Origin: Cyanobacteria bacterium UBA11370
Lineage (GTDB): Bacteria > Cyanobacteriota > Cyanobacteriia > Cyanobacteriales > Coleofasciculaceae
Length of the DNA: 33,230 nucleotides
Assembly: GCA_003486645.1 (NCBI GenBank)
Contig: DNGI01000012.1
Span: forward strand, 1 to 33,230
Direction of reading: 5' to 3'
In this document: piece by piece, positions 9,067-30,622 of the stretch
Numbering within the stretch: position 1 is the first letter of the stretch
How the letters are laid out: the number at the start of each line of letters is the position of its first letter
Program-made: the position numbers and the translations under genes
The notes under the pieces: model-generated
Database searches by the model: none
The model's input: the letters and a program-made list of their open reading frames with translations, nothing else
Told to the model about the DNA's origin: nothing

Positions 9067-11872
9067 ACGGTTATCTCAATATTTCAGCCTCAAGCGACGC
9101 TACTTTCGTTCTATCAACTTAGAACGGGATTTAGAAAAAGTAGATGCTTTGGAAGGCTATATCCCAACAGAAAGGTCACTTGATGCCATCAGACGTATTC
9201 TACCGGGATTGAACGGAACTTCCAATCACCGAGCTTGGACGTTAACAGGAGTATACGGTACTGGTAAATCCGCCTTTGCCCATTTTTTGACTTCTTTATG
9301 TTCTTCTCAAAACAGCCAGATGCGGCAAGAAGCTCTAAAAATTGCTGCTACGGCATTTGACATTGATAGCTCAGAATATCAAGCGCTGAATGAAAATATC
9401 CCAGATCGAGGTTTATTTCGTGCCGTTGCCACTGCCCAAAGAGAGCCATTAAGTAATACGATAGTTAGAGCGCTTTATCGAGGAGCCGAACTATTTTGGA
9501 CGACACCACAAAAACGGGCTAAAATTAGTGTTTATAGAGAACTTGTAGACCTAACCACTGATATTACAGATGGTGCGGTTATAGATAGTCGCAAGGCTCT
9601 AAAGTTAGTACAAGAAGTAGCAATTCAAGCTGATAATGGTGTTTTATTAATTATTGATGAATTAGGAAAAAACTTAGAATTCGCCGTTCAAAACCAAGGA
9701 GTAGAAGATTTATATTTATTCCAGCAATTAGCCGAACTACCTAAAGATAAGAATTATCAAATTTATCTACTTGGCTTGTTGCACCAATCATTTGCTGATT
9801 ATGGAGAGAGGTTAACATCTGTACAGCGCAACGAATGGGCAAAAATTCAGGGAAGATTTGAAGACATCCCATTTAAAGATTCTGACGCACAAATGATGAT
9901 GTTAATTGGTCAAGCAATTGACTCATCTCAAGCTGAACCAGTTCTTTGTGGAATTCACAGTCACGTAGCTGAGTGGTTTGAAGTTTTGCCAAATGATATT
10001 ACAAATGATATCACTCAGTCTATTCTAACTGCTGTTTACCCATTGCACCCTATTGCAGCATTAGTATTGCCGAAATTATGTACTCGTTACGCACAAAACG
10101 ATCGCTCTCTGTTTACCTTTCTCACCAGTGCTGAACCTTATTCGTTTCAAAATTATTTAGAAGAAACTTCAGTAGTGCCAGGAGAGGTTTTACCAACCTT
10201 AAAATTATCTAGAGTTTATGACTACTTTATTGAGGCAGTGGGAGTGGGATTAGCATCTAGACCTAATCTGCAACGCTGGGTAGAAATTCAAAATTTAATT
10301 GACGATGCTAAAAGTTTAGATGAAGACAGTTTACAAGTATTAAAGACAATTGGTATTTTAAACCTGATTACTACTACAAGTCCATTGAGAGCAACTCGCA
10401 CTTTAGTCACGCTAGCTATGTGTGATATTTCCACAAATGATAATAAGTTGCGATGGGAACAAAAAATTGAGAGTCTCCTACAAAAGGGTATCCTTACTTA
10501 TCGACGCCAGTTGGATGAACTGCGAATTTGGCAAGGTTCTGATTTTAATGTTGATGCTGAGTTATCTAAATATATCGAGCAAGAACGATTACCTTTAGTC
10601 AATCTTTTATCTACAATTCGTCCTCTGGCTCCTTTAGTTGCACAACGGCATAGTTACAAAACAGGAACGTTACGGTATTTTGAACGTAAGTATTTAGATG
10701 GTTTAGAAAATTTAAACGAACTACAATGTTTTCATTCTGATTGTGATGGATTAGTAGGATACTGGGTTGACAGGCAGTTACCCAATCAAGTTCCTTCGGA
10801 AACAGCGGATGGAAAGCCTTTAATTATTTTGGCGGCTGCTAAACTTGATTCATTACAAATTAGAGCGCGAGAATTTGCTGCATTAAAAAAAATTCAAACC
10901 AGCGCTTCTGAGTTGCAGACAGATGGGGTAGCAAGACAAGAAGTTCGCTATCGGTTAGTGCAGGCTGAAGAACTATTAAATGAAACTCTAGCTTCATCAT
11001 TTGATGTAGGTGCTAATAAAAATCCTTGTTGGATTCAAGGAAAATCAGAAACAATTAGCCACATTACAGATTTTAATGCCAAGCTTTCTGAGGTTTGCGA
11101 TCGGGTTTATAGTTCGAGTCCTATTCTTTGGAATGAATTAATTAATCGCCGGGAATTAACTTCTCAAGGGTCGAAAGCAAGACGAGAATTAATTGAGGCG
11201 ATGTTAGAACACGCAGAGGAAGAAAGACTTGCTTTGCAAGGAAACGGCCCAGAAGTTAGTATGTATTATTCTGTCTTGAGTGAGACGGGAATTCATCGCC
11301 AAGAAGAAGGAACTTGGGGATTTTATCCACCAAATGAAGAATCTGGTGTTAGCACGATATGGCAAGCGATTGAGGAATTTTGTTTTTCTGCTAAGGAGAA
11401 ACAACAAACTTTAGATAATCTCTACAAACTATTAGAAGCACCGCCTTATGGGGTTAAACAAGGAGTAGTTCCGGTACTGGTGGCGGCGGTTTTGTTATAC
11501 CACATCGATGATGTGGGGGTTTATCGCGATGGTATGTTTATTCCAGTTCTAGGGTCAGAACATTTTGAGTTGTTCTTAAAAGACTATTCTAGGTTTGCTG
11601 TTAAGTATTTTGAAGTGGTGGGATTGCGATCGCAAGTTTTCAAGGAACTGGAAACGATTTTGCGCTCTTCCAATGCTCAAATGTTAGCAGGTATTAGAAA
11701 TGCAACGCTGCTTGCAGTAGTTAGACCGTTGTTCCAGTTTGTCAAAAAGCTACCTGCTTATACTAAGAAAACCAAATGTCTGAGTGAGGAAGTATTGGCT
11801 GTACTCCAAACTTTACAGCAAGCGCAAGAACCAGATGAACTGCTATTTACTTCTTTACCAAAAGCTTGTTAA
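9059..11872 (+). CDS. Large BrxC-like P-loop ATPase of the defence operon
   Basis: 937 residues. Walker A is GVYGTGKS at 64-71 and Walker B is GVLLIIDELGKNLEFA at about 194-209, followed by long helical regions. The N-terminus (LSQYFSLKRRYFRSINLERD) and the layout resemble the BrxC/PglY-like ATPases found in BREX and in phosphorothioation-linked (Pbe-type) loci. It is cotranslated with the DUF4007 gene (overlap of eight bases). It would couple ATP hydrolysis to target recognition in a complex with the downstream proteins; this is inferred. HIP1 sites are present (for example at 11626), as in the host-like part of the operon. The gene is intact and ends nine bases before the stop of the opposing endonuclease gene. 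Confidence 0.75.
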   Translation: MNKRLSQYFSLKRRYFRSINLERDLEKVDALEGYIPTERSLDAIRRILPGLNGTSNHRAWTLTGVYGTGKSAFAHFLTSLCSSQNSQMRQEALKIAATAFDIDSSEYQALNENIPDRGLFRAVATAQREPLSNTIVRALYRGAELFWTTPQKRAKISVYRELVDLTTDITDGAVIDSRKALKLVQEVAIQADNGVLLIIDELGKNLEFAVQNQGVEDLYLFQQLAELPKDKNYQIYLLGLLHQSFADYGERLTSVQRNEWAKIQGRFEDIPFKDSDAQMMMLIGQAIDSSQAEPVLCGIHSHVAEWFEVLPNDITNDITQSILTAVYPLHPIAALVLPKLCTRYAQNDRSLFTFLTSAEPYSFQNYLEETSVVPGEVLPTLKLSRVYDYFIEAVGVGLASRPNLQRWVEIQNLIDDAKSLDEDSLQVLKTIGILNLITTTSPLRATRTLVTLAMCDISTNDNKLRWEQKIESLLQKGILTYRRQLDELRIWQGSDFNVDAELSKYIEQERLPLVNLLSTIRPLAPLVAQRHSYKTGTLRYFERKYLDGLENLNELQCFHSDCDGLVGYWVDRQLPNQVPSETADGKPLIILAAAKLDSLQIRAREFAALKKIQTSASELQTDGVARQEVRYRLVQAEELLNETLASSFDVGANKNPCWIQGKSETISHITDFNAKLSEVCDRVYSSSPILWNELINRRELTSQGSKARRELIEAMLEHAEEERLALQGNGPEVSMYYSVLSETGIHRQEEGTWGFYPPNEESGVSTIWQAIEEFCFSAKEKQQTLDNLYKLLEAPPYGVKQGVVPVLVAAVLLYHIDDVGVYRDGMFIPVLGSEHFELFLKDYSRFAVKYFEVVGLRSQVFKELETILRSSNAQMLAGIRNATLLAVVRPLFQFVKKLPAYTKKTKCLSEEVLAVLQTLQQAQEPDELLFTSLPKAC

Positions 11873-11880: not shown

Positions 11881-12837
11881 TTAAAAATTAAGCTTATATT
11901 CCATACCAGGAATTGAAAATTGAGAAGTAATCCTCCTAAATTTTATTTTTGAATCAGCATCAAGACTGATAAAAGGTTGGCCGCTTTTATTTCTTAAAAT
12001 ATTGCCTTTAAGACCAAATCGAGATTTAAGTAAATTAACAAGAAGTTCTACTTCATTATCAGAAAAGGCCATTGTATAAAATCGAATTTTGTGGTACGAG
12101 CATCCATCATCACAAAACCAAATTATTAAAGCGAATTCAGTTAAATATTCTGATAATAGCTTTTCAGAAACAACCTTTTTTTGATGATACCACTCAAGGT
12201 GAAATTTTGTAAAAATCGGATGCACTTTAGTTTTTAGCCACCACCCTTTATATTGCTTTCCTGTTTTTGTATGTGGTGAAGATAAACGTTCATTAAAAGT
12301 ACAAGAAAAATATCTGCTTAAAAATTGATACTTCCATTCTAAATATCTCTGATTACTGCCGCCTTCAGCATAACGAGCATTGCGTTTATTTGAGCATTTT
12401 TCAAGATAGCCGTCTCCTAATAAGCATCCTGTTAAAAATTCATATAATTCTCGGTCTGGCTCTTTTCCTACATAGCTCAAATAATGTGATTGTGTTAACG
12501 CTCCTTGCCCTCTTGTTTGCTTCATTCGTGAATTGAGAGTAGGTAAATCTGGATAAAGCTTTTTGTATTCTTTAACAGTTAGACCATGCGTTTTTAAATG
12601 GCTGTGATGAATCATTTCAAATTGTTGATTACACACTGCACAAGTCACCATATCAACGCCTTCTAGTTGGAGTTGCTTAATTCGATTACTTTGACGACGT
12701 TGCTCAACTTCGACAGAATACTGTTTTTGATAAACTGCTTGACACTCAGCATTACCACAAGTATGACGGCAAGCTTGGTGAGCATAACCAAGTTCTACCC
12801 TTTTTCCGCAAATCGCGCAATGAAATGGCTCCCGCAT
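11881..12837 (-). CDS. Zinc-finger LAGLIDADG-type endonuclease, free-standing
   Basis: 318 residues. The first 100 hold Cys/His pairs: CAIC at 7-10, C23 and C27 with C32, then CAVCNQQFEMIHHSHLKTHG at 66-85, which is like the MucR/Ros zinc finger and is followed by LTVKEYKKLYPDLP. The C-terminal part has two LAGLIDADG-type helices: FLTGCLLGDGYLE at 134-146 and LTEFALIIWFCDDGC at 232-246, with acidic residues in the expected places. It is not inside an intron or intein, so it is a free-standing homing-type or defence nuclease. It is AT-rich, has no HIP1, and points against the defence operon. It shares a 105-bp palindrome-rich region with the XRE-HNH gene. It may have mobilised the cassette. 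Confidence 0.75.
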   Translation of the reverse strand: MREPFHCAICGKRVELGYAHQACRHTCGNAECQAVYQKQYSVEVEQRRQSNRIKQLQLEGVDMVTCAVCNQQFEMIHHSHLKTHGLTVKEYKKLYPDLPTLNSRMKQTRGQGALTQSHYLSYVGKEPDRELYEFLTGCLLGDGYLEKCSNKRNARYAEGGSNQRYLEWKYQFLSRYFSCTFNERLSSPHTKTGKQYKGWWLKTKVHPIFTKFHLEWYHQKKVVSEKLLSEYLTEFALIIWFCDDGCSYHKIRFYTMAFSDNEVELLVNLLKSRFGLKGNILRNKSGQPFISLDADSKIKFRRITSQFSIPGMEYKLNF

Positions 12838-12891: not shown

Positions 12892-12957
12892 GTTAACTAA
12901 TGAGTTAACAAAAAATCTACCTGCTCTGTCATAATTGAAATTATGGGAAAAGCAGGT
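12892..12957 (+). promoter_or_regulatory. GTTAAC pair and nested inverted repeats around the XRE-HNH start
   Basis: Two GTTAAC palindromes are at 12892-12897 and 12904-12909 (12 bases apart). CATAATTGAAATTATG at 12930-12945 is an inverted repeat with a 2-base centre that contains the ATG start codon (12943-12945). It is bracketed by ACCTGCT (12919-12925) and AGCAGGT (12951-12957). As RNA this would hide the start in a stem; as DNA it is an operator-like site. No Shine-Dalgarno is visible. Confidence 0.5.
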
Positions 12958-14319
12958 CAAGCGCTCAGACAGGTATTGGAGTTCTACAACATCAGCCAAA
13001 GCTTACTGGCTACAGGCTTGGGTGTTGAACGTCCGATTGTCTTCCGTTGGTTTCACGAACACACAGATCCTACTGCTCAAACTGTTACTGAGATTGTCCA
13101 AGCCTTACATAAGATCAATCCGTCTGCTGCAAAAGACTTTGTACAAGCCTACTTAGGCGATTTGACACAAACTCTGCATAAAGCTTCAATTCAAGAGTTG
13201 CCCCTATCAGATCGGGTTAACGTTTCGGTCTTATCCCAAATTTTTGATAATACCACCAACTCTTACAAATACCTTTTTTTTATGTCCATACTAGACATCA
13301 TTAAAAGAAGGCAATTTGATACTTTATCACCTATTAGTTTTAAAGAAATAATTGTAGAGATGTTGGCTAACGCTTGGTATCCTCACAACTATTTTAAACT
13401 TTCCTTTGGAACACAAGATCAGATTGCTAGTAAATTAGATTCTCTTAATCTAGTAATCACTGAACCAATCTTAAAATTTAGAGACACAGATAAAAAGTGG
13501 TTAAGGAAATCCATTCAATCTCAAAACCTTGATGACATTATTACTTTTATAAGCAGGTATGTTCCATTCCGTCTTATTCGTCCTTTTTTTGCTCAAAAAA
13601 CTAAAGGTTTACTGGACGCTAAAGTAAATCAAGCCCTAATTGAGCTTTCTAACTATGAATTTGAAGTAACGAAACCTATCTATCGCTTTGAATCAGAATA
13701 TTTAAAAGATTGTAAAGCCATTGTTTTACATCAAGATTGGGTAGAATACATTGCTGAAAACTATCCTATCGTCAGGGGATGGGTATCGTGGGAATGGCTT
13801 CAATATATGCAGGAAAGAAATCCAAATATACCTAATGTGGTTAATAAAATATTTATGCCACAGCAGAGAGATTCTTTATCAGAACAAACGAAATATTGGC
13901 GAATTATTTTAGAAAATCGAGATATTGAATGTATTTACTCTAAGAAGAAATTGGCAAAACAAAGGATCTCTTTAGATCATTATTTACCTTGGTCATTTGT
14001 TGCTCACGATCAACTATGGAATTTAATTCCGACTTTGCCAGAAATAAACTCTTCTAAATCAAACTCCCTACCATCCAACGCTTATTTTGAAGATTTTGTT
14101 AGCCTTCAACATCTAGGCTTAACTGTATCTTATGAAAATTTACCCGAAACTAAATGGTATAAATATGTGGAAAGCTATATAAACGAATTAAAATTAAATC
14201 AGCTCCAAGATTTGCTTGATTTACAGAAATTACGTAATGCGTATGAAGCCACTATTAAGCCTTTAGTGTCTTTGGCAACCCTCCAAGGCTTTATGTCAAG
14301 TTGGCTTTATATAAATTAG
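12943..14319 (+). CDS. XRE-HTH protein with HNH nuclease domain
   Basis: 458 residues. Residues 1-75 are an XRE-like helix-turn-helix (LRQVLEFYNISQSLLATGLG, then VFRWFHEHTDPTAQTVTEIV). Residues 95-170 carry FDNTTNSYKYLFFMSILDII and EMLANAWYPHNYFKLSFG, a helical block I associate with a set of bacterial HNH endonucleases. The nuclease part is at about 328-378: C330, then ISLDHYLPWSF (D345, H346), WNLIPTLPEINSSKSNSLPS, which fits the DH...N...N/K pattern of HNH enzymes. The gene is AT-rich and has no HIP1 site, unlike its operon neighbours. It may be a self-regulated restriction-type nuclease. Whether it belongs to the phosphorothioation system or only replaced part of it is unclear. Confidence 0.7.
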   Translation: MGKAGQALRQVLEFYNISQSLLATGLGVERPIVFRWFHEHTDPTAQTVTEIVQALHKINPSAAKDFVQAYLGDLTQTLHKASIQELPLSDRVNVSVLSQIFDNTTNSYKYLFFMSILDIIKRRQFDTLSPISFKEIIVEMLANAWYPHNYFKLSFGTQDQIASKLDSLNLVITEPILKFRDTDKKWLRKSIQSQNLDDIITFISRYVPFRLIRPFFAQKTKGLLDAKVNQALIELSNYEFEVTKPIYRFESEYLKDCKAIVLHQDWVEYIAENYPIVRGWVSWEWLQYMQERNPNIPNVVNKIFMPQQRDSLSEQTKYWRIILENRDIECIYSKKKLAKQRISLDHYLPWSFVAHDQLWNLIPTLPEINSSKSNSLPSNAYFEDFVSLQHLGLTVSYENLPETKWYKYVESYINELKLNQLQDLLDLQKLRNAYEATIKPLVSLATLQGFMSSWLYIN

Positions 14320-14334: not shown

Positions 14335-15759
14335 GGAAAAGATACAACTAAAGTTTACTTAATTGCTGCTAATGACGGTCAGCTTGTTGAGGCATGGGCA
14401 GAAGCAGAGATTGCTGGAACCATCGAAGTGCGACAGGTAATCGAAGACCTGCTAGTTGAGGACTTACGGGAAAAGGAAGGCTTTTATGTGCGGTTTTACA
14501 ACCTCAGTCGTCAGAGTGCCGCTATTATCTTTCCACGGATCTTAGATGCGGTGTTGAAACATCCTGGCTGGCAAGTATGCGATCGCTGTCCTCAGCAAAA
14601 CCTTGGCTGTCCAATATGGGAGAATAAACTTCGTTTGGAAGGTTCAGAAGCTAACCGAACGACAAGAGAAAGACTGACCGATCTGTTAGAACTCTGCGAA
14701 CTCAATGAGATGCACCTACCTGTACGTCAGCTACTTTTGTTAGTCGCCAATTCGTTGCTTGGTCATCCGGATGCCAAAGATAAATTACTAACCTGTCAAC
14801 AAGTCCCTAAGATCGTAGAGTTAGGGAAAACTTCATTAGCTAGTATTTACCGCAATATTTTCGGTGAGAACTTTTCTGGACGCAGGCGTGAATCAACAGC
14901 AGTTTTCAAAGTGTTGCGGAGTTTTTGCATTGGAACCGAGACGAGCAACCAGATTGACAACATCCTAATTTTTGGAGCAGACGATCCTGAATTGCAGCCT
15001 TACTACCAACAGCTAGTTCTTTCCGATCCCTACTATGGTGCTGATGCAAATTATCAGGCGCAACAACGAGCTTATTTAGAAGGTGAGTTTGTCGGTAATC
15101 GCTCGGATTTTTTAAGTGTCCTACAATCTCAAAGACAGCGATTATTTTTTACGTTGCCAAACGATCGCGTAGCCGATTTGAGTTTGTGGAATCTCACTGT
15201 GTTTCAGTATGCAGGAGAATATTTGAGCGATGTTTACAGAGTTTTGAAAGAAGGCAAGAAAGTATCCAAGCAGATTCTTGTTCGTATAGTAAGAGGGTTA
15301 AATCGCATTTTTACAGGCTTTCTAGTAAACAACCAAGATGAGCTTATCTTGGCAACATCAGGAAGTTACTCTCAAGCCAAAATTAGCCGCGTTTACGAGG
15401 AATCAATATCTGTAACCAAGAAACGTGGTGAAAGTGTTTCGATAGAATTAGATAAAAACCAGCGCCAAGCCAGCTTAATTGTTCATCTTTCTCCAAAACT
15501 TGAAGCCATTTACTTAAATTTGACTTTAACTCGGTATGAGTATCTGAGTCGAGTAGCAGAAGGATCTTTGCCAAGCAGTTTTTCTCAGGAATGTTATGAG
15601 GATGTTCTTGCTTTCAAAACACAGGTTCTTAAGCAACTTGCTAATAGAAAACAGTTAGAAGGAGAAGAAGAAGATACCGAATATTCTATGAACATTCGCC
15701 TTTTAGAAGTAAATAATGACGGTATTGCCAGTCCTCGTTCTTTGGAGATTTACCTATAA
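14335..15759 (+). pseudogene. DptF-like ATPase missing its N-terminus and P-loop
   Basis: The frame is open from 14335 (stop TGA at 14332-14334) to 15759, about 474 residues. It opens with KVYLIAANDGQLVEAW, which in such ATPases follows the Walker A helix, so the P-loop and start codon are gone. The first usable start is GTG at 14428, inside the ATPase domain. Downstream features remain: a Cys cluster CDRCPQQNLGC, a segment NIFGENFSGRRR...FCIGTETSNQIDNILIFGADD as in DptF/PglY-like ATPases, and a helical C-terminus. The junction is right after the XRE-HNH gene, so the cassette replaced the 5' end. The stop is directly followed by the next ATG. HIP1 sites (14580) match the rest of the operon. 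Confidence 0.65.
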
Positions 15760-17352
15760 ATGCTTGAGATACTCCCACGCTCACAAGAAATTGAACAGTC
15801 TAAACTCACTATGTGGGTAGACGAATCAATTTGGGGTCATCGTCTACACGATGAGCAGACTCCTTGGCTGTGTCTTTTAGAGATGTTATGTATTACACAG
15901 TCGGAGGCTGCTAAAAGGCAAGCTTTTAGAGAAAATGAATTCAATAAGCTTAAATATGATACATATCCTCGAATTCACCTCCGCAACATTATATTTAATA
16001 ATCCTCATCTGGAAGCAATTGCATCCGAATATTCAGATGATGCTGAACGATGGAATAATTGGATAGAAAAAATTAGTAAAAACTGTGGAGGCATTCAAAA
16101 TCCTGATTTCAGCTACCTCAAACAAAGATTTGACTCTTTCAAGGATTTCTCAGAGCTGGTTAAGTTTCTGCAATCTAATGCTATTGAGGGAGACAGTAAT
16201 AAACGGTGGAGTTCTAAATTTGTCTTTCCTTACGGACCTAGTTGTTTGTATGGAGACTTGCTAGTTAGTGGTTCTCAAGAATCTCCCAAAATAACCAACG
16301 ATCGCCGTTTCTTTGGCAGAACTGGTGAACTTTTATATCTAATGCTATGTCGTAGCGGTTGCGGAGAAGAAATTTTTTCACGTTTGCAGAGAATAGGAAT
16401 TATTGCTAGTGAAGGTTTGCCAGCTAACAAAGCCTCTAAATGGAATCAACTTATTCTTGCCCTTCAACCTAAACAGGAACTAGAATCTGAGCGCCCTCAA
16501 AAAAGTGGCACCCCTCCTTATCTTCCCTATGCTCAGTTATCTGATTATGAAAATCTAGCCAAGGATTGGCTAAACATCTTGCGTTGTAATCTACCAGATT
16601 ATGACGCGCTACCTCATATTGTTACTATTACAGGTTTACATTTGATTATTTACCTACTCAGCCGCGCTAAAGCTAGACTGGAAGAAACAGAACCGCCCAA
16701 ATTTGTTTTAGAAATTGTTGCCCCTAAGAAAACGATTATTCGGGATCTGGCATCAGATGAGTATCAGAAAAATAACAACTTATCGCAACGAGCGATCGAA
16801 CATTATATTCGCAGCACAACCGAACTACCTGAATGGCAGAAATGCTTAGAATCATCGAATCCCTTCGAGGAAGCAAGAGATATTTTGAAAGAACGATTTG
16901 CTTGGCCTGCCAAAGATGAAGACTATTCATCGGGAGCAGGCTCGCCAGAAAGTTTGTTAGAAAACTTGCGAGAAGAGGCTGTTAGACGGCACAAAAAACA
17001 CCTAGCTAAATTTCATGGTAGCTGGGCACGCGAGATTGGATTGTCGTCTAGTCGAGGTAGTAGGCGCACTCGTTACGCTCCTAGCGATGCACTCTTGAGA
17101 ACACTCGTTCTCGCTTGTGTTCCTCATCGGATGGAGTTTCAAGATTTTTTAACAACGCTTAATCAAAAATACGGCTTTGCGATCGGTGATAAGCAGGCAG
17201 AAAATATCATCAGTTCGGGAGATGCCGATCGCGAAGACTTCACGGCGAATGCTGAACGATTAGAACGTCGTCTCGCCAGTATCGGACTACTCAAACGTCT
17301 ATCTGATGCCTGTGCTTATGTGCTGAATCCTATTGCTAGAGAGGTAAGTTAA
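15760..17352 (+). CDS. Conserved defence-operon protein, DptG-like position
   Basis: 530 residues with no domain I can name firmly. It has a hallmark stretch RWSSKFVFPYGPSCLYGDLL and NDRRFFGRTGELLYLMLCRSG (about 150-205), and a C-terminal helical region with a basic SSSRGSRRTRYAPSD turn (about 430-444). It starts at the base after the upstream stop and ends with TAATG, overlapping the next gene by one base, so it is translationally coupled on both sides. Lying between a DptF-like ATPase and a DptH-like motor it holds the place of DptG in dptFGH loci. It is probably a structural or bridging subunit; a name is not assigned. Confidence 0.55.
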   Translation: MLEILPRSQEIEQSKLTMWVDESIWGHRLHDEQTPWLCLLEMLCITQSEAAKRQAFRENEFNKLKYDTYPRIHLRNIIFNNPHLEAIASEYSDDAERWNNWIEKISKNCGGIQNPDFSYLKQRFDSFKDFSELVKFLQSNAIEGDSNKRWSSKFVFPYGPSCLYGDLLVSGSQESPKITNDRRFFGRTGELLYLMLCRSGCGEEIFSRLQRIGIIASEGLPANKASKWNQLILALQPKQELESERPQKSGTPPYLPYAQLSDYENLAKDWLNILRCNLPDYDALPHIVTITGLHLIIYLLSRAKARLEETEPPKFVLEIVAPKKTIIRDLASDEYQKNNNLSQRAIEHYIRSTTELPEWQKCLESSNPFEEARDILKERFAWPAKDEDYSSGAGSPESLLENLREEAVRRHKKHLAKFHGSWAREIGLSSSRGSRRTRYAPSDALLRTLVLACVPHRMEFQDFLTTLNQKYGFAIGDKQAENIISSGDADREDFTANAERLERRLASIGLLKRLSDACAYVLNPIAREVS

Positions 17353-20300
17353 TGGAGGCAATTGAGCTAATTGGACAAGTTGCGGCAGCTTTTCTGAAGC
17401 ATTCCATTAATATTGAGGAAACAGAAGGTGTTGCTCGTTTTCTACTCGATCGTCTTACTGCTGGGCAGGTAGCAGCTATCTGTCGCACAATTTTGCTCGA
17501 TTCACAACTTTCGGCATTAATTAAGATTCAAGTTTCGCGCAGATTACTCGGAGACTACGGACTCCCTGATGAGATTCTGACTGATGAATCAACAGTTCAC
17601 CTGCGACACGCCCCCTGCGATCGCTCTGCCCTGCTACTTGCCAGCACTAGCGACGATCAAGCTCAATCTCTTGGCGACATTACACCTTTGGGAGCGCAGG
17701 AACTTAAAGGGCAAGTAGACTTGTGGATTAAGCTTGCTGCTCAATATCTACCAATTCCTAAAGAACAGATTGAATACTGGCATAAAGCTCTTAGTGGGTT
17801 ACAAAAAGTTGGCACACCTAGCTTAGAGCATTTTGCTCAATACATTGTTGATACGCGATCGCACATCGACACTAATAGCGTTCCCATTGTCGATGCTTTA
17901 GGTTGGGCATTACCTGCACTACGATTACCCCGTGACTCTGGATACTTCCGCGCTATTCCTGAAACACAATTGAAGCAAACTCAAAAGTGGGAAAAACTAT
18001 TCCAGCAAGCTTTCTCTAAAAGAGGCTGTTTATTACTTAAGCAAACACCTAACCGCAAACCTATTGACGAACAAGACCTACAATCCGCTTTTGATAAAGT
18101 CAAAGAAGATATCCCAGAAGTTGCCTATCCAGCGATCGCAGCATTCATCAGTAGTCCCCCTGGATGGCACTCGCAAGCTGCTGCATTGACTGAGTTTGAA
18201 TGGGAACTAGATAGCATCAATTCCCTATTTTCAGGATTGCAAACACAGAAAAGTGACATTGCTTCTCTGACTCTCGATTTCTATAACGATGAATACCCTG
18301 ACACGCTCACAAACGCAGAAATTCAGTACCTCACTGCCCTGAAGAAGCGCAATAAAAAGGAGGCTTTAGATGAAGATCGAGATTTCTACGATACTCACCG
18401 CGACGAACTCGATATAGATCGCAAACTCAAAGCGAAGTGGGATAAATTTGTCTACGGGCAACCCATTGAATGCAAAGATTTCCTAATCGGTTTGCTACAA
18501 GGTTTTGAGCGCCTATTTGCTCAAGCAGAGTCGGTAGAGAGCCTTAAAACGCTAAAGATTTTAACCCATAAGTCTTCACGGAAAAGCTTATGGCTGGAAT
18601 TAAATGCTGATATAGGACTGTACTTTTGTACCCGCTATCGAGGTATTGAAAAACTTACCAGTCCTTACATTGAATGGGATACGCACTGGCTGTTTAAGTA
18701 CGATACTCTTCTAGAAGAAACCAAAAAGAAGCAAAAAAACAAATACCGAGAAAATTATTCAACGGCTAAACTTGCAACAGAAATCAAATTTTATATAGAA
18801 ATGCGCGATCGCGCCCAAAATATTATTGGTAAAATTCAATTGATTTGGAAGTGCAATCCTAATTCAATTGGGATGGAACTTTGTAATGATTTAAAAAGGA
18901 TAAGAAATCATCCCTTTCAACACTCTCAAGTTTCCCGAGAACTCGTTAGCAAGAAAGGTCGTTTACAGGGAATTTCTTTATCAGACGTAGGAACTTTGAT
19001 GGCTGCTTATAGCCAAGATCGCGGTTCTCTGGTAGGCAAGTACGAACGTAAAAATGACCTGGAAAAAACACTCCCTGCAAAGCTCAAAGAAGCTGTTAAA
19101 GAGGGTAGACTTTCTCAAGAAGCTTCTCAATCTGTCTTGACTGCATGGGAAGAATTCAGAGCTATCTACAAGAAAGCGATCGCCAGCTTCCTCGAACCCG
19201 AAAGTAATGGAATCGCCAGCCCATACCTACTTTACCAGTGCCAAGCCTACGGAAAGCTGTTGGCGACCATCCTGACCCACGCTAAGGGCGATCGCAATCG
19301 TCTCGACTTTTATCAGCCTATACTGCGCTTAGGATGCGTGCGCGTCGATCGAGGCAAGCCCGCTGCGATCGTTGCACCTTGGCATCCGCTACGATTAGCT
19401 ACCCTTGCTATCAAAGCGCGACAGGTTGCAGGGTTACTTAAATATATTACCTCCAACTCCGAAGTCAACTTCGGCGATTCCCGGCTGTTTTTTACAGATT
19501 TGAGGAACGATCTTTCTCATCCTTATTACCCAGAAGTCTGTGTGGGTTATCAAGGACAGCAGCCCGAACTCTTGGCAGTCTCAGATACTGTTAATGATTA
19601 CAGTTTAATGGAACGTCCCACAAAAGATGAAGGCGATAGATTCACCAACGAAGACCCTGCTGATGCTGCTGAAAAGTTGTTGGGATTAGTACATCGATAC
19701 GTTGAACTGCAACCTCATGAAAAGACTAATCTGAGCGTCATGCTTTACCAGACCGACTCTATTAAATTACCACAGGCGATTGTCAATAAACTTGGCGAAC
19801 AATTGCAAGAAAATTCTCAGGAAGTTCGCTGTCAAGTGCTTCTGCGCCACAGGAATGGTCAAAAACTTGCCCAACTTTACGCACAGATGATAGAAAGCTC
19901 TGATGCAGATCCGGATGCTTTTATTGCCAGTGAAGTCTCTCAGGATTTTATGGCTAGGCTGCGAATCGCAGTCCTGTCTAACGATGTACCTGCCGTCAAT
20001 GCCAGAGAAGGAAAGTTTGCAGACATTGTTTTTCTCCAAGATGCTATCTCCCGACAAGCCAAGGTTACTTGGCAACCTTCTCCCTTCGATAGCACTGCAT
20101 CCGATATTATGATGCACTTTCCTGCACGCTGGTCGCGCAAACGTCCTGCTGCCAAAGACGAATTGAAATCGATTGTTTATCTTACTTGCCCCAAACAGCC
20201 AGTTGTAGGTCAAGCTTATATAAACATGGTATATAGCATTATTAACGGTGAAGATTGTTCGCCAGAACAGCACTCTCTACCCGCACGACAAATTTCTTTT

Positions 20301-22667
20301 CAAGAGGAAACAACCAAAACCATTTTCGATGAAATTCATCGTCTAGGTGAATGGGTTGTTAACTACGATGACTTACTCGAACGGCGGCAATTGGTTAACC
20401 AAGGGGTTAAAGTAATCCGCTACCAACAAAACCGTACAGATGAACGAAACTTTTTGGTTTCCTCAGATGCGTCGTTAAACTTACTACAAGTCCTAGTTAG
20501 AAAACGATTGGAAGCACTCAATCTCGGTATTGGCACAGAACTGATTGAAAGGCTTGTAGAACGGTTCATCAATGAAGCGAACAGTCTTTCTGGAGACATT
20601 GTACTGCGGGCTGCTAAATGCGGTAGGTTTGCCAGCGAACTAATGGGTGTTGTTCTAAGTAAGGCATTAATTACTGCTGAAATAGGAGAACACAACCATA
20701 TAGGCTGGTATTTCCTTGATGATTATGCTTCGTGGCTGGGACAGAAAGAGGGACAGATAGCTGACATTATGGCAATTTCGCTACAGTACGTAGACGATGA
20801 GCCTGTACTAAAAGCGATCGTGTCGGAAGCAAAATATGTTGGCATAGCCGGACTAGCAGATGCTCGAAAAACTTCCCAAAAGCAGCTTAGGGATACAGTC
20901 GATCGCATTGCCAATGCTCTCTTCATCAGCCCAAGCCGCCTCGATCGCGATTTGTGGTTGTCTCGTCTCAGCGATCTTCTGCTGGAAGGTATCGAATTCA
21001 GTGCTGATGCTAAACTGCCCATCGAACAGTGGAGAGAAGGCATCCGTGCAGGAACGATACGAATTGATTTATCCGGCTACTCTCACGTTTTTATTTCCGG
21101 TACGAGCGACAGTGGTGTTGAGAGCGAAAGGATTCCCATTCCTAAAGTCAATCGCTGCTTCCAAGAAGTTTTCGATCGAAAATTAGTGCGTGACATCGTT
21201 GTTGCGTATGAAGCAGGGCAATCGCTCTTTACTATTCGCGAGCAAATAGGCGATGACAAACCTTGGTTAATCTCTCAACCCTTATTCCCTGCTAACAGAG
21301 TGACATGGGTTCTAGGTATTGAAGAAGCCAGTCAAGTACCAAATGTAGATGTGACTCCCGTAGCAGGTAATGAACCTGATGAAGACGGTGAACCAACTCA
21401 GCCGATTCAACTCCAGTTTCAATTTCCGCTCGCTCCTCCTACTTCCACAAACAATACTCCTTCTACAACTTTAGAAACCGATGATAGAAGCAATTGGGCT
21501 AGTCCCGCTCTTGTCAGATGGTGGCAACAATATCAGGTACAGACAAGCCAGAGTGATGCTACTTCTGTTGGATGGCTGAACGATACTGCCGCAAAGCTTA
21601 GAGGCGCATTGATAGGATACAACCTGCAAGCTAAGATACTCGGTCAGAGGCTTACACCCAATGCCGCCATTGTGCGCCTGAAAGGTTCTGATAACCTTAA
21701 ACTCGAAGACATTGAGAAACGGCGATCGCAACTTCTGACGACTCATGCCTTGAACATTATCAGTGTTTATGGTCAACCCGGTGAAATTGTCGTTTCGATC
21801 GCTCGTCCTCAACGACAGGTTATCTCCCTGCGTGAGGTTTGGGCAAAGCGAAAGATTAATCGCTCGCCATCTGGTATCAACCTCAGTTTAGTGATTGGGG
21901 TTAGGGAAATTGATGGTGAACTGCTCTACCTTAATTTAGGCAGTAGCTTTGAGAACCTCCAACAACATGCACCCCATACCTTGATTGCTGGGGCTACTGG
22001 AAGTGGCAAATCCGTTTTGCTGCAAAACCTTCTTCTCGACATCTGTGCTACAAACCCCAAAGAACTAGCAACTATCTATCTGATTGACCCGAAGGCGGGT
22101 GTGGACTATGCCAATATTGAGGAATTACCTCATCTGCGTGAAGGCATCATTATCGAGCAGGAGCGGGCGATTGATGTTCTAGACGAACTGGTTTCAGAAA
22201 TGGATTCCAGATACCTGAAGTTTAGGCAACAGAAGGTTAGAGACCTTCTGTCATATAACAACAAGGTTTCTGAAAGTGAACGCTTACCTGTTTTATGGCT
22301 CGTCCATGATGAATTTGCTGAATGGATGCTGGTAGACGAATATAAGGATGCTGTATCCTCAGCAGTTCAACGGCTAGGAGTCAAAGCGAGAGCGGCTGGA
22401 ATTCATCTTATCTTTGCCGCTCAACGTCCGGATGCTAATGTTCTACCTGTTCAGCTTCGAGATAACCTCGGTAATCGGTTGATTCTTAGAGTTGAGAGTG
22501 AAGGCACATCTGAGATAGCCCTCGGTCGCAAAGGAGCAGAACACCTCTTGGGACGAGGACACCTAGTGGCACGGCTATCTAGCGAGCCTGAACTTATTTA
22601 CGCTCAAGTTCCTTTTCTACCAGATGAAGATTTCTTATTAGTTACAAAAGCAATTACAAGTTTATAG
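17352..22667 (+). CDS. Giant FtsK/HerA-type ATPase, DptH-like
   Basis: 1771 residues. The last 240 form an FtsK/SpoIIIE-type motor: Walker A LIAGATGSGKS with K1553, Walker B LWLVHDEFAEWM at about 1648-1659, and HLIFAAQRPDANVLPVQLRDN with the arginine-rich tail GNRLILRVES. The first 1500 residues are unknown; they include charged helical segments (KKKQKNKYREN) and a low-complexity linker (PLAPPTSTNNTPSTT, about 1370). Size and motor position match DptH (DndH) of phosphorothioate-dependent restriction, or the corresponding motor of Pbe-type loci. It would translocate on DNA and drive restriction or replication block. It contains many HIP1 sites, and its start overlaps the previous stop. Confidence 0.75.
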   Translation: MEAIELIGQVAAAFLKHSINIEETEGVARFLLDRLTAGQVAAICRTILLDSQLSALIKIQVSRRLLGDYGLPDEILTDESTVHLRHAPCDRSALLLASTSDDQAQSLGDITPLGAQELKGQVDLWIKLAAQYLPIPKEQIEYWHKALSGLQKVGTPSLEHFAQYIVDTRSHIDTNSVPIVDALGWALPALRLPRDSGYFRAIPETQLKQTQKWEKLFQQAFSKRGCLLLKQTPNRKPIDEQDLQSAFDKVKEDIPEVAYPAIAAFISSPPGWHSQAAALTEFEWELDSINSLFSGLQTQKSDIASLTLDFYNDEYPDTLTNAEIQYLTALKKRNKKEALDEDRDFYDTHRDELDIDRKLKAKWDKFVYGQPIECKDFLIGLLQGFERLFAQAESVESLKTLKILTHKSSRKSLWLELNADIGLYFCTRYRGIEKLTSPYIEWDTHWLFKYDTLLEETKKKQKNKYRENYSTAKLATEIKFYIEMRDRAQNIIGKIQLIWKCNPNSIGMELCNDLKRIRNHPFQHSQVSRELVSKKGRLQGISLSDVGTLMAAYSQDRGSLVGKYERKNDLEKTLPAKLKEAVKEGRLSQEASQSVLTAWEEFRAIYKKAIASFLEPESNGIASPYLLYQCQAYGKLLATILTHAKGDRNRLDFYQPILRLGCVRVDRGKPAAIVAPWHPLRLATLAIKARQVAGLLKYITSNSEVNFGDSRLFFTDLRNDLSHPYYPEVCVGYQGQQPELLAVSDTVNDYSLMERPTKDEGDRFTNEDPADAAEKLLGLVHRYVELQPHEKTNLSVMLYQTDSIKLPQAIVNKLGEQLQENSQEVRCQVLLRHRNGQKLAQLYAQMIESSDADPDAFIASEVSQDFMARLRIAVLSNDVPAVNAREGKFADIVFLQDAISRQAKVTWQPSPFDSTASDIMMHFPARWSRKRPAAKDELKSIVYLTCPKQPVVGQAYINMVYSIINGEDCSPEQHSLPARQISFQEETTKTIFDEIHRLGEWVVNYDDLLERRQLVNQGVKVIRYQQNRTDERNFLVSSDASLNLLQVLVRKRLEALNLGIGTELIERLVERFINEANSLSGDIVLRAAKCGRFASELMGVVLSKALITAEIGEHNHIGWYFLDDYASWLGQKEGQIADIMAISLQYVDDEPVLKAIVSEAKYVGIAGLADARKTSQKQLRDTVDRIANALFISPSRLDRDLWLSRLSDLLLEGIEFSADAKLPIEQWREGIRAGTIRIDLSGYSHVFISGTSDSGVESERIPIPKVNRCFQEVFDRKLVRDIVVAYEAGQSLFTIREQIGDDKPWLISQPLFPANRVTWVLGIEEASQVPNVDVTPVAGNEPDEDGEPTQPIQLQFQFPLAPPTSTNNTPSTTLETDDRSNWASPALVRWWQQYQVQTSQSDATSVGWLNDTAAKLRGALIGYNLQAKILGQRLTPNAAIVRLKGSDNLKLEDIEKRRSQLLTTHALNIISVYGQPGEIVVSIARPQRQVISLREVWAKRKINRSPSGINLSLVIGVREIDGELLYLNLGSSFENLQQHAPHTLIAGATGSGKSVLLQNLLLDICATNPKELATIYLIDPKAGVDYANIEELPHLREGIIIEQERAIDVLDELVSEMDSRYLKFRQQKVRDLLSYNNKVSESERLPVLWLVHDEFAEWMLVDEYKDAVSSAVQRLGVKARAAGIHLIFAAQRPDANVLPVQLRDNLGNRLILRVESEGTSEIALGRKGAEHLLGRGHLVARLSSEPELIYAQVPFLPDEDFLLVTKAITSL

Positions 22668-22697
22668 CAGATTATTTGAAGGATTAGGAGAAAGTAA

Positions 22698-25600
22698 ATG
22701 ATAGCTGAGATTGAGCTTTTACTGAAAGAAATAGAAGGGCTTCGAGGCAAGGAGCTAAAGAATAAGCGGAATGAATATGTACGAAAGCTGGTTCAAATGT
22801 TTGAGCTTTCAAATTCTAATTATTCATCTCAAGTTTTATTCGATCCAACCAATAGTCCCCAGAAGAAAAAATTTATTTCAGCTTGTCTTCTCAGACTTCT
22901 TGGCCATAACGAAAATGCCGTTTGGGAAGATATTGATTTTCGCCTCAAGACATTTACTCTTTTTGATGAACAAATTACGGATGTGTACTATAGCCTCAAA
23001 ATTGAAGCTAGTCAAGATAATCATGTCAAGCTTTCGCAATTAAGGGCTCTCGAACAAGAGACATTAAATTTTTTTGAATCGATGACATTGGGAATTTCAA
23101 GCTTAAAAACAGCAGTCGATCTACAGTCAAAGCTAATGAAGGCATTGAAAGACCCATCAAACAGAATTTTTATAGATAGTTTTGTTAATAATCACCTTAC
23201 ATTAGAAGAAAGGATCAGAGAACTCTTTACTTGCCTAAGAGCTTATAATCAAGCTTCTGGAGTTTCTCGTATGAATGTCTACCAGGAGGTAGATAATGTA
23301 TTCTCTGCTTATATTAAAGATGCTGAAGATAGCTGTTCAATTTTCGCAAAAGTGTGCTTAGTTAATACATTTAAAAAAATTCATAATCTAATTAAAGAGG
23401 ATTTTGGAAAAAGTGACATAATAAAACCTACAAAATTAAGATTATTTCATCCGAATCGCAAATATCCATTCCATAAGATAGGAGAGCGCATTGAGTTAAA
23501 ATTTATATTAGAAAATGAAGGCTTAGGTTATGCCTTTGATGTTCAGATTGAGATTCTTGATGCTGATAAGATACAGCTAGAATTTGAGCAAATCGAGTAT
23601 GAAGAAATAAAAGTAGAAAAGCTGTCTATTGTATTACGGGCAACCGTTTTATCTGATATTGCAAAAAAGCCAAGTCTCTTTATTCGTTGGTCATGGCAAA
23701 ATTATGATAAAAGCCAAATATCAGAAGAAGAAATATTTGAATTTGAATCTCAAAAGGAAGATATAAACTGGGATAAACTAAAGCTAAAAAGACCATACAG
23801 CTTGCAAGCAGTTGAAAAAGAGGAAGATCTTATTGGTCGAGGCGAACAAGTACAGAATATTTATACGAATTTGATTGCCGACACTATTGAATCAGTGATG
23901 ATATTTGGACAGAAGAGAGTAGGTAAAACATCAATAGCCAAGACATTAGCAAATAAGCTACAGAAAGAAGAAAACCTTATACCTATATATATTAAAGTAG
24001 GTGATCTAGATAAGACCACTTCGAGTCATTGTGTTAGAACACTTGGCGATGCCATTGTAGAAGAGATTCAATATCACAATAAATTAAGTAATTTTGAGAT
24101 CCATAAACCTGTTTTTACTGATGTCCTGTCTCCTCCGCTCGCTAACTATTTTCGCAAAGTTAAGCGAACTTATCCTAATATTAAATTTATTATAATTATT
24201 GATGAGTTTGATGAAATCCCAAGCGAACTTTGTCGATATACTGATATAGGTAATACATTCTTTCATAACATTAGGAGTTTAAGTCAGGAAGGTTCTCAAA
24301 TAGGTTTTATCCTCGTTGGAGGAGAAAATATGCAAATAATTCGCCAATCTACTGACAGATTAAATCTTTTTTCTCCTTTTCAAGTTGATTATTTTGATAA
24401 AGAGAGATTTTTTGGAGATTTTCAAGAATTGATAAGATACCCTGTCCAAAATATCCTTGAATTTAGCGATGAATCTATTAATAAAATCTATGAATTAACC
24501 GAAGGGAATCCTTTTTTCACAAAATTTATTTGTGATAAATTATTTAAGCAGGCTTGTGATAGGAAAGATTCGTATATTTCCATTGATGAGACAAGAGAAG
24601 CTATAAGAGATTCTATAGAATCTCTTGATACAATTAACGTTAATCACTTCTGGATTGATGGGATTTGGGAAGATAAAACTGAAAAGATCGATAAAATTCA
24701 AACTCAAAGAAGAAAATTTTTGATTGCTTATGCTGAAATTAAGCGCTGTAAGGGAAGAGTAAAAAAGCAAGATATTCTTGAATCTAAGCTTTTAAATGAT
24801 GTTGCAATTGAGAGTTTAACCGAAGGGTTTATTAATAGAGGAATTCTCTTGGAAGAGGATGGATGCTTTAGGCTAAAGCCAAAAATTTTCGAGGAATGGC
24901 TTGTACAAAAAGGTAGCCAATTACTTACCAGTAGCTTTTCAGATGCTAATGCAATTGAAGAATTAAGGAGTCAAGAAGAAAAAGTATATGTTACTGATAA
25001 AGAAATAGCTGATTTAATTAAGAATTGGGGTTTGTATAGGAATTCAGAAATTACAATACCCCATGTTCGCATTTGGCTAGATCAGTTTGAAGGTAACCTT
25101 GAACGTCGCCTCATGTTTAAACTTCTACAGAACATTACTTTTTACAAGGAAAAACAGATTCGGGAAAAACTTACCGTGATTCATTCCTATGTAAGAAGGA
25201 ATATGCAATTTTCTATCAAAGAAGGTGAAAAATCAATACGGGAGATTCTTTTGAGTAGTTTTGGTCAACCCACAAAAAGTGGATCTTCTTTCGCTCGTAT
25301 GTATGCCACAGAGAATAAAGTTATTAGTACTAATGTCGCCTCAGTTAATGATATTCCTAAAACCTTAGATAAAAATGATAGAATTTCTACCCTGGTATTT
25401 ATAGATGACATAATTGCTTCGGGCGGCTCAATCATCGAGGGTCTGAGAAATTTAAGTAATACTTGTGGAGAGGCAATATCCGCGAAAAATCTAAAAGTTG
25501 TTGTTGCTACTGTCTGTGGGCTTGAATCAGGTAAAGAGGCGATTGAAAAAGAAGCACTTCAACTGCCTTTCAACGTCGAAGTTTATATATGCGATACCCT

Positions 25601-25838
25601 TAATGACTCTAATCGTTGTTTTACTAAGGAATCATCATTCTTTGAAAATGAGCTAGATCGAAGCAAAGCGAAAGAAATTGCACTTGAATATGGCACTAAA
25701 ATCCAGAAGAGAAATCCCCTTGGCTATGATGGAGGACAACTCATTGTTGTATTTCCCGATACCTGCCCTAATAATTCGCTTCCTATCCTTTGGTGTTCAT
25801 CTGACCATTCTTGGGTTCCTTTGTTTAGAAGACACTGA
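22698..25838 (+). CDS. AAA ATPase fused to a phosphoribosyltransferase-like domain
   Basis: 1046 residues. Order: helical N-terminus (1-250); a beta-sandwich-like segment (about 255-355, with RIELKFILENEGLGYAFDVQ); an AAA/STAND-like ATPase opening with EEDLIGRGEQVQ, Walker A GQKRVGKT at 404-411 and Walker B IIIIDEFDEI at about 497-507; a region at about 690-740 resembling a winged helix; then a C-terminal domain from about 770. That domain has WLDQFEGNLERRLMFKLLQN and a PRPP-loop-like VFIDDIIASGGS (D903, D904, G909, G910), typical of type I phosphoribosyltransferases, and fits the PRTase-CE group of conflict systems. It has its own site (AGGAG at 22686-22690) and lies 12 bases before dndA. 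It is AT-rich with no HIP1 site, unlike both neighbours. Confidence 0.7.
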   Translation: MIAEIELLLKEIEGLRGKELKNKRNEYVRKLVQMFELSNSNYSSQVLFDPTNSPQKKKFISACLLRLLGHNENAVWEDIDFRLKTFTLFDEQITDVYYSLKIEASQDNHVKLSQLRALEQETLNFFESMTLGISSLKTAVDLQSKLMKALKDPSNRIFIDSFVNNHLTLEERIRELFTCLRAYNQASGVSRMNVYQEVDNVFSAYIKDAEDSCSIFAKVCLVNTFKKIHNLIKEDFGKSDIIKPTKLRLFHPNRKYPFHKIGERIELKFILENEGLGYAFDVQIEILDADKIQLEFEQIEYEEIKVEKLSIVLRATVLSDIAKKPSLFIRWSWQNYDKSQISEEEIFEFESQKEDINWDKLKLKRPYSLQAVEKEEDLIGRGEQVQNIYTNLIADTIESVMIFGQKRVGKTSIAKTLANKLQKEENLIPIYIKVGDLDKTTSSHCVRTLGDAIVEEIQYHNKLSNFEIHKPVFTDVLSPPLANYFRKVKRTYPNIKFIIIIDEFDEIPSELCRYTDIGNTFFHNIRSLSQEGSQIGFILVGGENMQIIRQSTDRLNLFSPFQVDYFDKERFFGDFQELIRYPVQNILEFSDESINKIYELTEGNPFFTKFICDKLFKQACDRKDSYISIDETREAIRDSIESLDTINVNHFWIDGIWEDKTEKIDKIQTQRRKFLIAYAEIKRCKGRVKKQDILESKLLNDVAIESLTEGFINRGILLEEDGCFRLKPKIFEEWLVQKGSQLLTSSFSDANAIEELRSQEEKVYVTDKEIADLIKNWGLYRNSEITIPHVRIWLDQFEGNLERRLMFKLLQNITFYKEKQIREKLTVIHSYVRRNMQFSIKEGEKSIREILLSSFGQPTKSGSSFARMYATENKVISTNVASVNDIPKTLDKNDRISTLVFIDDIIASGGSIIEGLRNLSNTCGEAISAKNLKVVVATVCGLESGKEAIEKEALQLPFNVEVYICDTLNDSNRCFTKESSFFENELDRSKAKEIALEYGTKIQKRNPLGYDGGQLIVVFPDTCPNNSLPILWCSSDHSWVPLFRRH

Positions 25839-25850: not shown

Positions 25851-27014
25851 GTGAATGAATCTCAGTTTCCTATCTATTTCGATTACCATGCCACAACTCC
25901 GGTTGATCGCCGTGTTGCCGATCGCATCTACCACTGCATGACTGAAGAATTCGGCAACGCTAGCAGTGTAGATCACTCGTGGGGCGATCGCGCTGAAGAA
26001 GCCATTAAACAAGCTGCTAAACAGGTAGCCGAGCTAGTTAGAGGTTCACCGAGAGAAATCGTTTGGACATCGGGTGCAACCGAGAGCATTAACCTGGCTA
26101 TCCAGGGTAGCCTGTCTCCCAACCCTGGAAAACCTCACCGCATTGCGCTGCTGCCACTCGAACACAAAGCTGTTCTCGACACCTGCCATATTCTAGAGAA
26201 ACGCGGCTGGGCAGAACTGACTTACCTCCAAGTAGATTCTAGAGGAAGACTCAACCTCAACCATCTAGAACAAGTTTGTGCTGAGGGACTCTCCCTTCTT
26301 TGTGTTATGGCAGCCAACAACGAGATTGGCAATATTTATCCAATTGAGGTGATCGCTCAGATTGCTCAACGCTACGGTATCCCTTTCCTCTGTGATGCCT
26401 CTCAAGCGGTCGGGAAAATCCCCCTAAACTTTCAGGACTGGGGAATTACATATCTGGCAATCTCAGCTCATAAACTGTATGGGCCAAAAGGTTCAGGAGC
26501 TTTGGTGATTAGAAAAGGATATCACCTAGAACCAATTCTATTTGGGGGTGGGCATCAAAAAGGAATCAGGTCTGGAAGTCTGAATGTTCCTGGTATTGTT
26601 GGTTTGGGAGAAGCTTGTCGCCTGCGTTTGCTGGAAATGGATGAAGATGAGAAAGCGATCGCGTGTCTTAGAGACAGATTGCAAAGCTTATTGATAGATA
26701 AAATTCCTGGTTTAATCATAAACGGAGATGTGTCGTGCCGTTTAGCTGGCAATTTGCATATCTCTATGCCTGATGTTCCCAATAGTGCCATTATTGCCAG
26801 AGTTCGTTCTAAGTTAGCCATCTCGACTGGTGCTGCCTGTTCATCTGGTGTACAAACCCCTTCTCACGTATTGCAAGCTATGGCTCTCTCTTCTAACGTA
26901 ATCGAAGGGGCACTGCGGATTGGTATTGGTAAGTTTACGACTTTTGAAGAAATCGAACAGGCTGCGGAAATTCTTGCCACAGCTGTTAGCCTCACTCGTC
27001 AACTTATGTATTAA
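25851..27014 (+). CDS. dndA: Cysteine desulfurase, DndA/IscS type
   Basis: 387 residues, fold-type I PLP enzyme. It has YFDYHATTPVD near the start, the PLP lysine in ISAHKLYGPKGSGAL (K208), and the persulfide cysteine in TGAACSSGVQTPSHVLQAM (C330). It takes sulfur from L-cysteine. In phosphorothioation loci DndA hands it to DndC; here no DndC is present in the window, so it may serve a remote DndC or Fe-S assembly. The start is GTG at 25851, 12 bases after the PRTase gene stop, with GAGAGGAC upstream. HIP1 sites (25984, 26656) return in this gene. The alternative is a general IscS; the operon context favours DndA. Confidence 0.8.
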   Translation: MNESQFPIYFDYHATTPVDRRVADRIYHCMTEEFGNASSVDHSWGDRAEEAIKQAAKQVAELVRGSPREIVWTSGATESINLAIQGSLSPNPGKPHRIALLPLEHKAVLDTCHILEKRGWAELTYLQVDSRGRLNLNHLEQVCAEGLSLLCVMAANNEIGNIYPIEVIAQIAQRYGIPFLCDASQAVGKIPLNFQDWGITYLAISAHKLYGPKGSGALVIRKGYHLEPILFGGGHQKGIRSGSLNVPGIVGLGEACRLRLLEMDEDEKAIACLRDRLQSLLIDKIPGLIINGDVSCRLAGNLHISMPDVPNSAIIARVRSKLAISTGAACSSGVQTPSHVLQAMALSSNVIEGALRIGIGKFTTFEEIEQAAEILATAVSLTRQLMY

Positions 27015-30594: not shown

Positions 30595-30615
30595 CCTCCC
30601 CTAGCGGGAGGTTTT
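30595..30615 (+). terminator. Hairpin CCTCCC-loop-GGGAGG followed by TTTT
   Basis: CCTCCC (30595-30600), loop CTAGC, GGGAGG (30606-30611), then TTTTC. It can terminate transcription after the actin-like operon. The 3' arm GGGAGG is also the only Shine-Dalgarno-like site for the ATG at 30623, so the hairpin may also control that start. Confidence 0.5.
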
Positions 30616-30622
30616 CTTATCT

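Follow-up and report, generated by a model that had tools for sequence, protein, structure and literature searches.

In type III-A retrons a phosphoribosyltransferase (PRTase) domain is the presumed effector (PMC9122126, PMC12548924) and is paired with a winged-helix protein (PMC12548924); how retron PRTases act is described as unknown (PMC9122126). In the DprA-PRTase pair of P2-like phages, for which anti-phage activity has been shown, the PRTase is presumed to be the effector of a sensor (PMC9122126). Back-up effectors, stand-alone or embedded and mainly nucleases, have been described in BREX/Dnd loci; the term PRTase does not occur in the main text of either report (PMC10853773, PMC12839542). 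Here we describe a gene whose 1046-aa product joins an ATPase to a PRTase-CE domain. It lies on a 33,230-nt stretch of a contig of Cyanobacteria bacterium UBA11370 (GCA_003486645.1, DNGI01000012.1, positions 1 to 33,230 of the forward strand; hereafter the window), between the sspH and sspA genes of an Ssp phosphorothioation-type operon. The protein belongs to an uncharacterised, widespread family that is an immune-receptor-like ATPase joined to a phosphoribosyltransferase. On balance, we consider it probable that it is a self-contained, probably antiviral signal-ATPase effector, whose ATPase switches the PRTase and whose gene is carried as cargo.

The identity of the ATPase and PRTase-CE domains is near certain. 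Pfam PRTase-CE (PF24390) matches over profile positions 1–253 of 253 (9e-55; 186.7 bits against a cut-off of 27) and ATPase_2 scores above its cut-off (2.8e-9), with ATPase_2/AAA domains spanning residues 383–605; these domain matches are therefore not chance. PRTase_III-A, from the retron III-A effector models of PADLOC, matches residues 784–1045 (7e-39), and the NCBIfam model DS32_1_antiphage (NF053875) scores well below its cut-off (2e-13; 50.2 bits against 250). The AlphaFold2 model of the full-length protein has a predicted local distance difference test score (pLDDT) of 87.4 and a predicted template-modelling score (pTM) of 0.71; the PRTase part modelled separately reaches 92.6 and 0.88. 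In structure searches with Foldseek the ATPase region resembles ORC2, SSO1545-type ATPases, NLRs and CED-4, and the PRTase region resembles uracil, orotate and adenine PRTases. Against viral models, the named rows among the best 50 matches were mainly AAA+ proteins, and a full-length profile run against PDB sequences returned a single weak clamp-loader match. The C-terminal part thus combines a PRTase fold with a phosphoribosyl pyrophosphate (PRPP)-type loop, as expected of PRTase-CE, and the ATPase part combines an intact P-loop and Walker B with an ORC/STAND fold followed by a winged helix, as expected of STAND/ORC-type proteins. The original prediction had proposed such a fusion from the open reading frame (ORF) and its Walker A, Walker B and PRPP-loop-like motifs; all lie where it had placed them (Table 1), and the Pfam matches and predicted PRTase fold bear it out.

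Conservation follows the same two domains. In an alignment of 50 sequences, the query included (A1), Walker A residues G404, G409, K410 and T411, Walker B/acidic-patch residues D502, E503, D505 and E506, and D903, D904 and G909 of the PRPP-type loop are identical in all 50. Among 36 more divergent sequences (A2), none departs from D904 or G909, and one has E in place of D903, which the other 35 keep. Mean identity is 51% for the ATPase and 47% for the PRTase, against 34% each for residues 1–245 and 246–350; the N-terminal parts are thus among the fastest-diverging regions of the protein. The roles could be reversed: the N-terminal helical region would be the effector, and the PRTase part, catalytically idle, would sense nucleotides or PRPP. 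This appears quite improbable, given the near-invariance of the catalytic-type acidic pair and loop glycine, the rapid divergence of the N-terminal part, and the presumed effector role of the domain family in retron III-A (PMC9122126, PMC12548924).

The protein shares its PRTase-CE domain family with type III-A retrons, and the winged-helix-like region that precedes the PRTase recalls the winged-helix partner there (PMC12548924). Unlike these retrons, it is a single polypeptide with an ATPase in place of the sensor, and no reverse transcriptase (RT) gene adjoins it: its flanking genes are sspH and sspA, and no Rfam match at gathering score, as a retron non-coding RNA might give, was found in the window. 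It differs from the DprA-PRTase system in having an ATPase instead of the DprA partner (PMC9122126). With STAND/NLR and ORC/Cdc6 ATPases it has in common the fold, Walker A and B, a GR motif before the P-loop and a winged helix after the core, but it carries a C-terminal PRTase, and its presumed sensor is N-terminal. DS32_1_antiphage shares the PRTase-like anti-phage domain; its model, with 322 positions, is shorter than the fusion. Its name suggests DefensePredictor system DS-32; in PMC13092281 a legend listing validated systems includes a PRTase, and DS-32 was not found in its main text. Like the embedded effectors of BREX/Dnd loci, the fusion would be a stand-alone effector carried in a modification-type locus, although those are mainly nucleases (PMC10853773, PMC12839542).

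The fusion gene lies 30 bases 3' of sspH and 12 bases 5' of sspA, with ribosome-binding-like sequences on both sides. Eleven Ssp-FGH loci were seen; L135, which ends just after sspH, and L137, with 1.06 kb from sspH to the contig end and no SspA match, were left out of the junction count. Six of the remaining nine, window included, have an empty junction, with sspH running into sspA across a gap of at most ~100 bases (L136, L138, L139, L140, L141 and L143). The other three hold three different cargoes: the fusion gene, a DUF262 gene plus a kinase gene in L163 (Pseudanabaena ABRG5-3), and two small unannotated minus-strand ORFs in L142 (12436–14460), where ~48 N-terminal sspA residues are present twice. 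The sspH–sspA junction is therefore an insertion slot. In Synechocystis 6803 pSYSM (L164, 13093–15155) a RelE/HigA pair lies just 5' of sspA, the start of which is duplicated; no sspF, sspG or sspH was found in this 29-kb stretch. L142 and L164 thus both have a small gene pair inserted at the sspA start and ~50 N-terminal sspA residues doubled, which suggests that insertions recur by a route that leaves the target gene restored. The cassettes 5' of sspA differ among cyanobacterial plasmids (L159, L160, L161, L163), their contents being DndB with a helicase and phospholipase D, BrxL, HNH, and sspFGH with DUF262 and a kinase; the region upstream of sspA is therefore a swap zone for restriction modules.

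The original prediction regarded the gene as newly inserted cargo, and its absence from the junction in all eight other Ssp-FGH loci where the junction is visible agrees with this. So does its G+C content of 33.7%, compared with 38.8% for sspC, 44.7% for sspH and 46.8% for sspA; the LAGLIDADG and HNH genes upstream are similarly low (34.6 and 34.8%). The other argument advanced for insertion, the lack of HIP1 octamers, is correct as a count (none, against seven in sspH and two in sspA) but weak: sspB and sspG also have none, and 1.7 would be expected in the fusion gene at the window average (P ~0.18), or P ~0.013 when the rate of sspH plus sspA alone is used. Of the two signs of foreign origin, low G+C is the better. 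A search for terminal repeats around the gene returned short repeats only, and promoter-like sites are no more frequent than in shuffles.

The host operon is Ssp, as PADLOC assigns sspB, sspC, sspF, sspG and sspH to this system; the desulfurase fits DndA (3e-135) and SspA (8e-135) equally. The original prediction was right to place the gene between an FtsK-like motor gene and the desulfurase gene, 12 bases from the latter, but its Dnd/Dpt label does not hold. Relatives have the order sspB–sspC–sspD–sspF–sspG–sspH–sspA; in one of them an HNH gene separates sspC from sspD. No sspD was found in the window or in the 88.5%-complete source assembly, and the same query was positive in nine of nine comparison genomes, so the host locus lacks the intact sspB/C/D/F/G/H set of a functional SspABCD-FGH system. 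From its sequence, the Ssp module at 9059–15759 looks decayed or broken, although the truncations and sspD loss may be a misassembly artefact, the assembly being fragmented into 550 contigs. With SspD missing, phosphorothioation by the host locus is unlikely, and since SspFGH damages DNA without the phosphorothioate mark (PMC8092258), it makes sense that the start of sspF has been lost together with sspD. That the fusion gene is open over its whole length within a broken Ssp locus fits an Ssp-independent function.

The LAGLIDADG (minus) and HTH-HNH (plus) pair at 11881–14319 recurs in pSYSM (L164 9723–12419), 48% and 59% identical, with equal gene lengths and again after a shortened sspC; further cyanobacterial plasmids and Ssp loci carry related HNH genes. 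The flanks of the locus (6145–7934 and 29254–32048) code for ParA/ParB, an actin-like protein and an M23/SLT peptidoglycan hydrolase, and ParA genes also adjoin sspA on several plasmids, so the contig could come from a plasmid.

Association with phosphorothioation genes does not characterise the fusion family as a whole. When 16 window proteins, a set without SspD, were searched by tblastn against 80 homologue loci, which include ATPase-only loci and L011/L040 (the same sequence), SspB, SspC, SspF and SspG were found in none; the sole Ssp-type matches were, in L048, a motor domain (31%) and, in L110, a desulfurase (43%). Among genomes bearing the fusion gene (50 of the 79 genome loci taken), DndC occurs anywhere in the genome in five and SspD in two. 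Within the order, the gene is present in three and a near-full-length sspH in ten of 388 genomes, and only the source genome has both. The fusion protein might be a dedicated phosphorothioate-dependent effector of the host Ssp system, as the original prediction leaned, and its tight operon spacing and flanking ribosome-binding-like sequences speak for this; the scarcity of ssp genes beside homologues and the missing sspD make it very unlikely. Functional membership in a Dnd, Dpt or Ssp system thus finds no support, and of the two features on which the prediction depended, the PRTase fold held up while homologues are almost never found beside phosphorothioation genes. Independent cargo is the likely status of the gene, rather than an Ssp part.

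A protein search scored 7986 candidates and returned 457 homologues, with identities of 87–93% for P0002 and P0003; nearly all among the 120 listed carry both PRTase-CE and an AAA domain. Forty-nine from several phyla, with identity down to 33%, align end to end with the 1046-aa protein. The fusion thus forms a widespread family that is not confined to the Ssp operon. Within the source's own phylum it is rare: the full-length gene is present in 2 of 386 genomes sampled from Cyanobacteriota (52 matched, those listed beyond the window and G262 being ATPase-only or partial), in three genomes of the order sample at E below 1e-100, and in two of 61 genomes of the G262 family. The nearest copy with visible context (L040, 66% identity) is in G262 (Oscillatoriales), of the same order as the source, and neighbours DUF4189, histidine kinase and XisI genes, not Ssp genes. 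The tree, from which L049 was left out (longest ORF <600 aa), intermixes Cyanobacteriota with Chloroflexota, Ignavibacteriota and Pseudomonas, which suggests horizontal transfer; homologues are present in named Pseudomonas strains. A search for a second copy found only one PRTase-CE in the source assembly. IMG/VR holds three loci at 27–30% identity, two of which were taken to be identical to genome loci L069 and L100. The term PRTase-CE was absent from the literature text searched, which covered few subscription papers, and the fusion from the titles and abstract openings searched, a scope that excludes most subscription papers and is no proof of absence.

No conserved partner gene emerged when the 1311 ORFs around 83 loci were compared all-against-all: besides the PRTase gene no cluster exceeded five loci, and two of the five-locus clusters come from Chloroflexota relatives that have the ATPase only (L112, L113, L114, L117, L118). 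Five of the 83 loci were dropped as duplicates or for want of the ORF (L011, L043, L116, L120, L121) and 15 more because their best ORF match ended before residue 1000, leaving 63. Other defence operons, namely type I and III restriction–modification (R-M), Hma, DISARM and Gabija, adjoin the fusion gene in at least 8 of these 63 (Table 1). By PADLOC, no family is dominant among the 25 commonest of 256/315 around the gene (107 upstream and 109 downstream neighbour ORFs), a count limited to these 25, so that absence of others is not provable. A retron link was rejected: RT models match 3 of the 107 upstream neighbours, the one examined (L095) matches mixed RT classes, and no retron pairing was found.

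PrrC, beside type I R-M, is a guard-type effector fired when a phage inhibits the complex. The fusion could similarly be a guard or back-up effector for host R-M machines, which watches the adjoining complex and fires on phage inhibition. Its gene is inserted between subunit genes of three systems (sspH–sspA; hsdR–hsdM in L045; HmaB–HmaC in L049) and adjoins DISARM, Gabija and type I and III R-M elsewhere; five of the eight rows of the window's clade, two of them near-identical Pseudomonas, are labelled as beside a defence operon, and this label needs at least six changes on the tree. However, no such linkage is established for the other 55 of 63 loci, few of whose neighbours were annotated one by one; the label, assigned by the analyst, is not clustered on the tree beyond shuffles (142 of 500 as low); L040, the nearest homologue with visible context, has none of these systems among its named neighbours; and the Ssp system beside the fusion gene looks broken. 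We regard a guard role as rather unlikely, and as unlikely a broader form of it, in which recurrent capture into unrelated operons (Ssp, type I R-M, Hma, DISARM, Gabija) reflects an integrity guard that triggers PRPP or nucleotide depletion.

We therefore return to the self-contained effector. An ATPase-switched PRTase effector in antiviral defence is plausible, and a PRTase effector role that may be triggered by the ATPase can reasonably be inferred. Either a phage product or a disturbed component of the host would be sensed by the rapidly evolving helical and beta regions at the N-terminus; this would lead to switching or assembly, dependent on ATP, that frees the PRTase, which could act on PRPP or a nucleotide-like acceptor and halt the cell or the phage. 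The gene would be expressed via the Ssp operon without needing the Ssp system. Several points weigh against this proposal. Residues 1–245, the candidate sensor, have no significant family match and no assigned fold. No match was found in 72,556 plasmid or 50,697 phage records, where SspA, as a control for the plasmid search, matched 314, so mobility of the fusion gene is not directly shown. Because individual annotation covered only a minority of the neighbours at the 63 loci and no null model was applied, defence adjacency is a pattern, not an enrichment. The published work covered contains no enzymatic, binding or phage assay of the fusion or of full-length homologues. Finally, type III-A retron Bpu1 did not protect E. 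coli against phage; another, Ppe1, could not be transformed (PMC12548924).

Elsewhere in the window (17 proteins scanned with Pfam), a 986-aa HEAT-repeat protein at 1235–4656, overlapped by a short P-loop ORF (1235–1699), is matched in PADLOC by HEAT-type retron, nuclease and WGR proteins (2.7e-41 at best). It lies 18 kb from the fusion gene; its RT_UG21 match (1.8e-5) falls on the HEAT repeats.

Table 1. Features of the window and arrangement of defence genes at homologue loci
Feature	Location	Strand	Remark
sspB (DUF4007)	8119..9066	+	Pfam, PADLOC
sspC, cut at residue 937	9059..11872	+	reaches PADLOC profile position 922/1104; relatives continue
LAGLIDADG endonuclease gene	11881..12837	-	in place of sspC end of relatives
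Helix-turn-helix (HTH)-HNH endonuclease gene	12943..14319	+	in place of sspD and sspF start of relatives
sspF remnant	14428..15759	+	homology from 14335; first ~138 residues of relatives missing
sspG	15760..17352	+	PADLOC
sspH (FtsK/HerA motor), full length	17352..22667	+	PADLOC SspH, 2370 bits
AGGAG, ribosome-binding-site-like	22686..22690	+	7 bases 5' of ATG; read from sequence
ATPase–PRTase-CE fusion gene, 1046 aa	22698..25838	+	ORF with ATG start
All-helical N-terminal region, residues 1–245	22698..23432	+	candidate sensor; predicted structure
Beta-sandwich-like region, residues 246–350	23433..23747	+	secondary structure of model
ORC/Cdc6-STAND-like AAA+ ATPase, residues 358–655	23769..24662	+	
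Walker A GQKRVGKT, residues 404–411	23907..23930	+	invariant residues in A1
Walker B region ending DEFDE, residues 497–506	24186..24215	+	invariant acids in A1
Winged-helix-like region 3' of ATPase, residues 656–745	24663..24932	+	inside ORC2 and ATPase_2 structural matches
PRTase-CE domain, residues 790–1045	25065..25832	+	Pfam, PADLOC, AlphaFold2 model, structural matches
PRPP-loop-like FIDDIIASGGS, residues 901–911	25398..25430	+	in stretch aligning with orotate and adenine PRTases
sspA/dndA-type cysteine desulfurase, GTG start, full length	25851..27014	+	Pfam, PADLOC
hsdR–PRTase–hsdM–hsdS	L045		gaps of 25 and 6 bases
hsd genes and AbiZ-like gene beside PRTase gene	L047		
hsdR upstream of PRTase gene	L065		
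HmaB–PRTase–HmaC	L049		PRTase gene split into two ORFs
PRTase–drmE–drmA–drmB	L064		DISARM
gajA–gajB–PRTase	L042, L059		Gabija; two loci near-identical
Type III restriction gene upstream of PRTase gene	L053		

PRTase effectors of retrons and embedded back-up effectors are known already; the ATPase–PRTase-CE family is uncharacterised. The locus shows the sspH–sspA junction as an insertion slot, and that an Ssp locus can degenerate while the reading frame of its cargo gene remains open. As a single-polypeptide PRTase with its own switch, the fusion should be easier to study than a retron, offering one gene and two clean loss-of-function sites. If the guard reading were true, the family would be a bacterial counterpart of plant NLR guards, with a phosphoribosyltransferase as its output.

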